From NCBI GenBank assembly GCA_027486415.1, contig JAIXPC010000006.1, positions 1 to 64,000 on the forward strand: DNA of 64,000 nucleotides. The letters are read 5' to 3'. The DNA comes from Sphingomonadales bacterium (GTDB lineage: Bacteria > Pseudomonadota > Alphaproteobacteria > Sphingomonadales > Sphingomonadaceae). The notes under the pieces are model-generated. The model saw nothing but the letters and a program-made list of their open reading frames with translations. It searched no databases and was not told the origin of the DNA. The first letter of the stretch is position 1, and the number at the start of each line of letters is the position of its first letter. The position numbers and the translations under genes were made by a program. This document shows, piece after piece, positions 1,110 to 50,188 of the stretch.

Positions 1110-1225
1110 CACATTCTCCCCATAATGGCCAGCAGCAACACACCTCTGGTCACCCCGGTGTCACGCCTGGTCAACGCCACAGTCATAGCCGGCAGCCATT
1201 GGCGGCGAAAGGGGCTTGACGAACG

Positions 1226-1240
1226 GAACAGATGTGGAAC
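1226..1240. promoter_or_regulatory. LexA/SOS box 1 upstream of the small membrane protein gene
   Basis: GAACAGATGTGGAAC is a perfect GAAC-N7-GAAC, the reverse-complement form of the alphaproteobacterial SOS box GTTC-N7-GTTC. Its complement, GTTCCACATCTGTTC, is nearly the same as the recA box in this window, GTTCCACACTTGTTC. It lies between a TTGACG (1216-1221) and a TACAAT (1242-1247); that spacing of 20 is long for a sigma-70 promoter, so the promoter assignment is tentative. Confidence 0.82.
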
Positions 1241-1249
1241 ATACAATCG

Positions 1250-1264
1250 GAACAAAGAATGAAC
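1250..1264. promoter_or_regulatory. LexA/SOS box 2, in tandem with box 1
   Basis: GAACAAAGAATGAAC is a second perfect GAAC-N7-GAAC, nine bases after the first and 15 bases before the ATG at 1280. Two exact boxes within 39 bases are very unlikely by chance. The position just downstream of the candidate -10 fits repression of this promoter by LexA. Confidence 0.8.
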
Positions 1265-1279
1265 GAAAGGAACAGGGCA

Positions 1280-1456
1280 ATGACGATGATGCTGATGCTG
1301 CTGGCCTGCTCGGCCGCCTGGGCTCTGGTGGTGGTGATGCTGGGCGATGCTCGCCCGGTGCTGATCAATGCCCTGCGCGGGCAGCCCGTTCAGGGCGGCG
1401 GCTGGATGCCTTCGGCGGTGCCCGTGGCCCGCAAGCGCGCCTGCAACCGTCTGTAA
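1280..1456 (+). CDS. 58-residue single-span membrane protein, predicted SOS-induced
   Basis: Small protein of unknown family. Residues 2-21 form one hydrophobic span (MLMLLACSAAWALVVVM), followed by a short loop, a Gly-rich stretch (GQPVQGGGW) and a basic tail (ARKRACNRL). AAAGGA lies about 10 bases before the ATG; an in-frame ATG at 1259 would add seven residues but would sit inside LexA box 2. The last 67 bases overlap the 3' end of convergent pssA. The tandem LexA boxes directly upstream argue that it is expressed and induced by DNA damage. By analogy with Caulobacter SidA, a tiny SOS-induced inner-membrane division inhibitor, it may block division; that function is inference from regulation, size and topology only. 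Confidence 0.6.
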   Translation: MTMMLMLLACSAAWALVVVMLGDARPVLINALRGQPVQGGGWMPSAVPVARKRACNRL

Positions 1457-2196
1457 CTGCTCACAGAAAACGGCAGCAGCGCTGCATAGACGGTGACGAC
1501 CACTGTCAGCGTTGCCCACGGATTGCTGAACAGGGCCCCGGCAAACAGCCCGACCCCGGCCAGCGCCGGCAGCCGCCATGACCGCCGCAAGCGCAGCGAT
1601 CCCCAGCTGAAACTCGGCAGACTGGACACCATCAGGAACGCCGACATCAACGCCGTGACCGCCACGATGCTGGCCCTGACCGCGGTATCTTCAAACACCG
1701 CTGGTTCCAGCCAGAACTGCACATAGAGCGGGGCAAGGGTCAGACCAGCGCCAACAGGTGCAGGGATTCCCGTGAGATAGCCCAGTTTTTTGTGCGGCTG
1801 ATCCTCCGCATCGATCTGCGCGTTGAAGCGCGCCAGCCGCAATGCACAGGCAATCGCATTGGACAGCGCAATGACCCAGCCCCAGCCGCCGGGCAGATAT
1901 TGCAGCGCCCACAGATACAGGATCAGGGTCGGCGCCACGCCAAAAGCGGTCACGTCAGACAGCGAATCCAGCTCTGCCCCGAACCGGCTGGTACCCTTCA
2001 GCAGCCGGGCAATGCGGCCATCAATACCATCAAGCACGCCGGCCAGCACGATCGCCAGAACCGCCTTCTCCCACTCTCCGCTCATGGCAAAGCGCACGCT
2101 GGTCAGGCCGCAGCACAGGGCCAGCACAGTGACCGCATTCGGCACGAGGGCGCGGAGCGATATGCCCTGTCGGCGGGGGAGACGCGGGTCAATCAT
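1390..2196 (-). CDS. pssA: CDP-diacylglycerol-serine O-phosphatidyltransferase
   Basis: Integral membrane enzyme that makes phosphatidylserine from CDP-diacylglycerol and serine, the step before decarboxylation to phosphatidylethanolamine. The 268-residue protein has the CDP-alcohol phosphotransferase signature with all aspartates present: D56, D59-G60, A63-R64, G73, D77 and D81. Several further hydrophobic segments follow, as expected for a type II bacterial PssA. It is 45 bases downstream of psd, so the two form a compact PE-synthesis operon in the order psd-pssA. The 3' end overlaps the convergent small gene at 1280. Confidence 0.96.
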   Translation of the reverse strand: MIDPRLPRRQGISLRALVPNAVTVLALCCGLTSVRFAMSGEWEKAVLAIVLAGVLDGIDGRIARLLKGTSRFGAELDSLSDVTAFGVAPTLILYLWALQYLPGGWGWVIALSNAIACALRLARFNAQIDAEDQPHKKLGYLTGIPAPVGAGLTLAPLYVQFWLEPAVFEDTAVRASIVAVTALMSAFLMVSSLPSFSWGSLRLRRSWRLPALAGVGLFAGALFSNPWATLTVVVTVYAALLPFSVSSYRRLQARLRATGTAEGIQPPP

Positions 2197-14484: not shown

Positions 14485-14513
14485 GATGTACCGCAAATGT
14501 TCCGCGAGAACAA
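14485..14513 (-). promoter_or_regulatory. Predicted recA promoter
   Basis: On the minus strand TTGTTC (14513-14508) and TACATC (14490-14485) are separated by exactly 17 bases. The -35 hexamer is embedded in the SOS box, so LexA binding would directly occlude it. The leader to the ATG would be about 43 bases. Confidence 0.6.
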
Positions 14514-14522
14514 GTGTGGAAC
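14508..14522. promoter_or_regulatory. LexA/SOS box of recA
   Basis: On the minus strand GTTCCACACTTGTTC is a perfect GTTC-N7-GTTC, the form recognised by LexA in alphaproteobacteria. It overlaps the predicted recA -35 and is almost the same as box 1 at 1226. Confidence 0.9.
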
Positions 14523-50173: not shown

Positions 50174-50188
50174 GTTCAGACGCTGTTC
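50174..50188. promoter_or_regulatory. LexA/SOS-box sequence upstream of gyrA
   Basis: GTTCAGACGCTGTTC is a perfect GTTC-N7-GTTC, 28 bases before the gyrA ATG. A single exact box is expected about twice by chance in 64 kb, so this one is less certain than the recA and tandem boxes; its place in the short gyrA leader is what makes it notable. Confidence 0.5.

Follow-up and report, generated by a model that had tools for sequence, protein, structure and literature searches.

We describe a gene for a 58-residue membrane protein that is preceded by two LexA boxes in a genome of the Sphingomonadaceae. We consider it moderately probable that the product is an SOS-induced checkpoint protein which would block a late step of division, as SidA does, and which in most of its family would be cleared by ClpXP through a C-terminal Ala-Ala. 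Several features are well supported at the sequence level: the LexA boxes, the promoter layout, a selected reading frame, a membrane helix, a tail rich in basic charge, a fixed place at the side of pssA and selection for Ala-Ala across the family. Beyond them, we infer induction itself, the membrane topology, turnover by ClpXP, and division arrest together with its target. The analysis started from a sequence-only reading of the window (G000:C7:1-64000, the whole stretch of 64,000 nucleotides that was analysed; the host genome has 2.71 Mb), which had proposed LexA control of a genuine small membrane protein. Both parts of that proposal now find strong support in the conservation of the frame, the boxes, the promoter layout and the genomic place.

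LexA boxes and promoter layout

The two exact GAAC-N7-GAAC boxes reported just before the 58-residue frame are present at the positions first given for them (Table 1). The promoter elements of the window are ordered TTGACG, box 1, box 2 and then the start codon, and the likely -10 region overlaps the second half-site of box 1. A strict sigma-70 scan returned no promoter at the small gene, and a match to the -10 consensus was likewise absent there. Conservation of the boxes, of this layout, of the frame and of its place argues strongly that the gene is under LexA control.

Table 1. Features of the small gene, its convergent neighbour and the recA operator in the window.
Feature	Position	Strand	Basis or remark
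-35-like hexamer TTGACG	1216-1221	+	Sequence; TTGAC recurs at family loci
LexA box 1, GAACAGATGTGGAAC	1226-1240	+	Exact GAAC-N7-GAAC; position kept across the genus
Likely -10 region, ACATACAAT	1238-1247	+	Inferred from sequence alone; choice of hexamer ambiguous
LexA box 2, GAACAAAGAATGAAC	1250-1264	+	Exact GAAC-N7-GAAC; near the expected transcription start
Small membrane protein gene, 58 aa	1280-1456	+	ATG at 1280, stop ends at 1456; genus profile; dN/dS outside pssA
Helix predicted at residues 2-32, which contains the membrane span	1283-1375	+	AlphaFold2
Antisense overlap where the small gene and the pssA-type gene meet at their 3' ends	1390-1456	.	67 nt; small frame from about residue 37
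pssA-type CDP-alcohol phosphatidyltransferase gene, convergent neighbour	1390-2196	-	PF01066, 81.8 bits (cut-off 22)
LexA box GAACAAGTGTGGAAC upstream of recA	14508-14522	+ (recA on the minus strand)	RecA: TIGR02012, 576.5 bits

The GAAC-N7-GAAC pattern occurs five times in the window against 1.06 occurrences expected, and none of 100 shuffled sequences contained five or more. Genome-wide, we counted 58 matches against 33 for a reversed control pattern, and a box that stands by itself therefore says little; several of the other boxes lie inside long reading frames and may be chance matches. Boxes 1 and 2 are convincing because they are conserved in relatives.

The genome encodes one LexA above the family cut-off, and a box lies 28 nt outside the part that matches. 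Boxes were also found upstream of lexA, recA (L008), uvrA (L245) and a dinB-type polymerase gene (L251); these names come from profile matches, and the stretches for UvrA and the polymerase are partial or score under the equivalog cut-offs. The genome therefore combines a LexA protein with known SOS genes that are boxed in the same way as the small gene, as expected of a LexA regulon. Box 1 and the recA box differ at two of the seven spacer bases, which bears out the near-identity noted earlier. For comparison, the accessible text of a study of the Caulobacter SOS response gives the consensus as GTTC-N7-GTTC, the same as here, with about 97% of SOS promoters carrying a single box (PMC12700426).

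One locus (L247) was first taken as imuA-like; it has no match in Pfam or NCBIfam, and we dropped the name, which came from reading only. Another box in the window (50174-50188, minus strand) lies 43 nt upstream of a gyrA-type gene that is identified by the NCBIfam gyrA models and Pfam PF00521 and is truncated by the stretch examined. LexA control of gyrase would be unusual.

The reading frame and its place beside pssA

Further in-frame ATGs at 1232 and 1259 would extend the frame (ORF of 74 aa), and the start at 1280 is favoured because relatives align from there. AlphaFold2, run with 14 family sequences, predicts a single helix at residues 2-32 with block pLDDT values of 96 and 95 for residues 1-20; the model as a whole has a mean pLDDT of 76.4 and a pTM of 0.41, and its tail is poorly defined. 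Hydropathy and the model agree on one hydrophobic helix, in line with the single membrane span assigned from the letters, and the small size and predicted single span are those of SidA-like proteins. The lack of resemblance to any family held up as well: the window protein has no Pfam or NCBIfam match at E ≤ 10, and eight relatives gave only matches under the cut-offs (best E 0.063). The LysM domain of the YneA/ChiZ kind was found neither in the window protein (no Pfam match at E ≤ 10) nor in the eight relatives at E ≤ 1. Homology to known division inhibitors was not demonstrable, the comparison with SidA being made by description only. The gene is filed as a new family of LexA-controlled small membrane proteins and not as SidA.

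We built a genus profile on 18 proteins, and it matched 24 of the 24 genomes of the genus (E from 4e-22 to 1.3e-5). Six of these genomes were outside the build: two closely duplicate a member, and the remaining four are independent, with E values of 4.9e-13, 2.9e-12, 2.0e-11 and 1.3e-5. The weakest of them (G006, locus L106) has a TGA within the profile match and an open frame of just 46 codons. At least one exact upstream box was present in all 24 genomes, and 12 carry two exact boxes 23-25 nt apart. By reading, PssA and the small gene lie on opposite strands at all 24 loci. The same small protein also occurs in Sphingomonadales bacterium UBA6157 (L165). Loss of the frame with retention of the boxes in close relatives had been named beforehand as an outcome that would speak against the proposal; box and frame were instead found together throughout the genus, with the frame shortened in G006.

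Selection on the frame was measured over codons 1-36, which lie outside pssA. The dN/dS ratio was 0.08-0.18 between L032 and L033-L036 and 0.24 between L037 and L038. For the window gene compared with its closest kin, L032-L036, it ranged from 0.14 to 0.61, with 0.49 for L032, the nearest of them. Over all 66 pairs of 12 sequences, the mean pN was 0.206 against a mean pS of 0.384, and the highest ratio, 1.07, came from distant pairs. On these codon comparisons, we conclude that the frame is under purifying selection between close relatives, and together with the profile matches and boxes throughout the genus this marks it as a real gene. The values of 0.49 and 1.07 weigh against our preferred account. 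A chance frame next to chance boxes would fit the genome-wide counts, in which single boxes are often fortuitous, but the box, the frame and its place are all conserved and the frame is under selection; we regard coincidence as extremely improbable.

Sequence similarity alone does not carry past the genus: at E ≤ 0.1, the genus profile (A1) picked up 24 of the 199 genomes of the family. Eight of the weaker matches were inspected, of which three showed a box and a small frame (G131, G195 and G080) and five appear fortuitous. Other genera were reached through the promoter pattern and the genomic place, and then through loci fetched by PssA. The pattern TTGAC-N(3-11)-box was present in 37 of 39 family genomes, and 32 of the 39 showed, by reading, a boxed small membrane frame; G024, G030, G066, G069, G071, G072 and G075 did not (the match in G075 was not inspected). 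Leaving out L155, which has a GTG start, we compared 31 frames from outside the genus, and 29 of them are convergent with pssA; in the other two (L116 and L162), no PssA lies in the stretch covered. In the window itself, the best NCBIfam model for the neighbour is TIGR00473 pssA, at 98.6 bits and under its cut-off of 107; the overlap with this gene had escaped the sequence-only reading.

For a test that is independent of the small gene, we chose 80 loci by PssA alone (the best 80 of at least 595 matches), which comprise 70 family and 10 outgroup loci. Among the 70 family loci, 66 had a box, 64 had a small membrane frame under a strict filter and 62 had both; the reversed control motif was found in two of these 70 regions. 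Three of the loci (L197, L231 and L234) do not bear Sphingomonadales titles and were included because their PssA is 51-56% identical; leaving them out gives 63, 61 and 59 of 67. Of the 66 boxed loci, 64 have TTGAC within 20 nt upstream of a box, and multiple boxes occur at 17. No box was found at the 10 distant outgroup pssA loci (Zavarzinia, Asaia, Thalassospira, Labrenzia, Bradyrhizobium and five others) or at 21 pssA loci of seven other families of the order, these being the loci with 700 nt available among 23 taken. On these distributions, the gene appears to be a feature of the GTDB family that contains Sphingomonas, Sphingobium, Novosphingobium, Erythrobacter, Croceicoccus and Polymorphobacter.

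The exceptions among the family loci are of several kinds. One locus has no such gene (L194), one has the frame without an exact box (L222) and two contigs stop 245 and 60 nt past pssA (L221 and L236). The frames of L210 and L212 failed the strict filter and are present with a longer start, and L205 has a 35-aa frame that ends in -GRG. Joint conservation of boxes and frame in relatives had been put forward as a check; in this wider family set, two of the 70 loci have a box and no frame. These two loci, of Sphingorhabdus type (L186 and L189), have an exact box 36 nt past the end of pssA and lack TTGAC as well as the small frame; that box may be a remnant or a chance match. At six loci (L187, L193, L201, L214, L220 and L223), an extra box lies 5' of TTGAC, so the operator layout differs between lineages.

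This constant neighbourhood raises another explanation, in which the protein binds or modulates PssA, or in which the convergent transcript interferes with pssA during the SOS response. The convergent place is conserved in the counts above, overlap of the two genes is frequent, and the single terminator-like site near the end of the small gene is on the opposite strand. Convergent pairs do not, however, require a functional link, and the box and the protein persist where the small gene stops short of pssA: it ends 3-13 nt before pssA in the genus of L348-L354 and 93-183 nt before it at L178, L179 and L215. We therefore judge a role in phospholipid synthesis to be quite improbable.

The basic tail and the C-terminal Ala-Ala

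The tail that follows the span is net positive in all 64 family frames that passed the filter (mean net charge +5.9, mean length 56.5 residues), and the segment ahead of the span is never net positive (net charge -1 to 0). Under the positive-inside rule, the positively charged side of a membrane protein stays in the cytoplasm. The positive tail and the uncharged N-terminus thus lead us to predict a cytoplasmic tail. Such a membrane-anchored basic tail might serve the SOS response in some other way, for instance by holding DNA or a repair factor at the membrane, and the constancy of its charge would suit that role. Its sequence differs widely among genera, however, and neither Pfam nor NCBIfam finds a domain or motif in it; we judge another SOS function of this kind to be as improbable as the role in phospholipid synthesis.

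In most of the family, the C-terminus may mark the protein for turnover. Ala-Ala is the C-terminal pair in 55 of the 64 frames and Ala is the last residue in 60; for comparison, the window has 43 ORFs of 150 aa or longer, and none of them ends in Ala-Ala. Because most frames overlap pssA, we tested whether the coding of the opposite strand accounts for this end. The codons of pssA were swapped for synonyms according to each gene's own usage (with pseudocounts), conditional on the stop and without correction for relatedness. By itself, the coding of pssA would give Ala-Ala at 12.7 of the 55 overlapping loci, whereas 49 have it; none of 20,000 simulations came out that high. Among the distinct proteins that end outside pssA, 12 of 15 have Ala-Ala (6 of 9 in a first set and 6 of 6 in a second), a count that includes L188, with a 4-nt overlap, and drops L352, which is identical to L230. 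In the second set of non-overlapping loci, two of 14 (L356 and L359) yielded no candidate. Both the codons used for alanine and the stop differ among members, a sign that selection acts on the residues. The idea that Ala-Ala is a mere shadow of pssA coding is countered by both the codon test and the proteins that end outside pssA, and the family thus shows the end of ClpXP substrates beyond what the opposite strand would impose.

The window protein itself ends in -NRL and its genus mostly in -RA. We discarded -RA as a selected motif, since by reading it is the antisense of SYAR, a conserved PssA motif. The degron reading therefore leaves out the window protein and its genus, whose ends are, on this reading, explained by pssA coding. 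C-terminal Ala-Ala is described in the accessible part of PMC11034885 as a common ClpXP degradation signal, one that matters for CdnL in Caulobacter.

On the pssA side, the codon under the antisense stop is arginine AGG at 25 of the 55 overlapping loci. Codon choice in pssA appears here to be set by the end of the small gene on the opposite strand, and the locus offers a natural instance of such an effect.

Proposed role and comparison with known systems

In the mechanism that we propose, LexA bound to one or two promoter boxes would repress the small gene, and DNA damage would lead through LexA cleavage to a burst of the small protein. The protein would enter the inner membrane with its N-terminus outside and its basic tail in the cytoplasm, and there it would keep the late division machinery (FtsW/FtsI/FtsN) from acting while repair is under way. 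In most of the family, the C-terminal Ala-Ala would deliver it to ClpXP, and the block would lift shortly after LexA is restored. Conserved sequence is the basis for the promoter step, and the division block is suggested by analogy with SidA, DidA, YneA and SosA. If this account is true, we expect induction by mitomycin C, filaments on expression and a fast turnover that needs Ala-Ala and ClpXP.

A more specific version appears rather unlikely to us: a checkpoint of the Sphingomonadaceae's own, built on a division inhibitor with a cytoplasmic tail, timed by a ClpXP degron in most members and locked in antisense into the end of pssA, which would tie together DNA damage, division and phospholipid synthesis.

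The alphaproteobacterial SOS division inhibitor is known from Caulobacter, in the form of SidA. The locus described here offers one conserved candidate checkpoint for Sphingomonas, Sphingobium, Novosphingobium, Erythrobacter and their kin. Among the matches listed in open-licence literature, searched by titles and the openings of abstracts, none deals with a small membrane protein under SOS control in Sphingomonadales, which does not prove that no such paper exists. The terms 'Sphingomonad' and 'small membrane' are absent from the main text of a 2026 Caulobacter SOS paper (PMC13384398).

We also scanned by promoter pattern 58 genomes of the class, of which two belong to the same family; 39 matched, and 42 of the matches among those listed were inspected. 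In four other alphaproteobacterial families (L283, L285, L286 and L287), hydrophobic frames of 30-44 codons directly follow TTGAC and a box. They lie about 1 kb into each 2-kb locus, are SidA-sized and lack the basic tail; by size and description, they are possible SidA-like genes. In another family of the order (L318 and L323), this promoter pattern is followed by a frame which resembles, by reading, a single-stranded DNA-binding protein.

Not every SOS-induced membrane peptide acts on division. DinQ of Escherichia coli is described in the available text of PMC3567139 as a toxic, SOS-controlled single-transmembrane peptide which causes membrane depolarisation and a fall in ATP, with filamentation unaffected. 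A protein of the DinQ/TisB kind would slow growth in this way with no specific divisome target, and it would share with ours its regulation, its size class and its single membrane helix. DinQ and TisB belong to a type I toxin-antitoxin arrangement with an antisense RNA. Neither is known to have a basic tail or C-terminal Ala-Ala of this kind. The members of our family are longer, with the long basic tail and the selected C-terminus, and we consider a DinQ/TisB-like role unlikely.

The division-inhibitor role that we prefer has its models in known systems. SosA of Staphylococcus aureus (77 aa) and YneA of Bacillus subtilis are, in the parts of the published accounts available, SOS-induced single-span division inhibitors cleared by proteolysis; their tails are extracellular and removed by CtpA, and YneA also by DdcP. 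Here the tail is predicted to be cytoplasmic and a ClpXP signal is proposed. Turnover is thus a known part of such checkpoints, and the same need would be served from the cytoplasmic side. DidA of Caulobacter crescentus is likewise small and single-span: the accessible text of PMC4211646 presents it as a 71-aa division inhibitor induced by damage, acting through FtsN and driven independently of SOS by DriD, whereas the gene described here carries LexA boxes. SidA of the same species, in the same text, is a 29-aa, SOS-induced and LexA-controlled inner-membrane protein that interacts with FtsW (PMC4211646). The protein described here resembles SidA in its putative LexA control, its very small size, its predicted inner-membrane location and its alphaproteobacterial host; it differs in being about twice as long or more, in its conserved basic tail and in the Ala-Ala found across its family.
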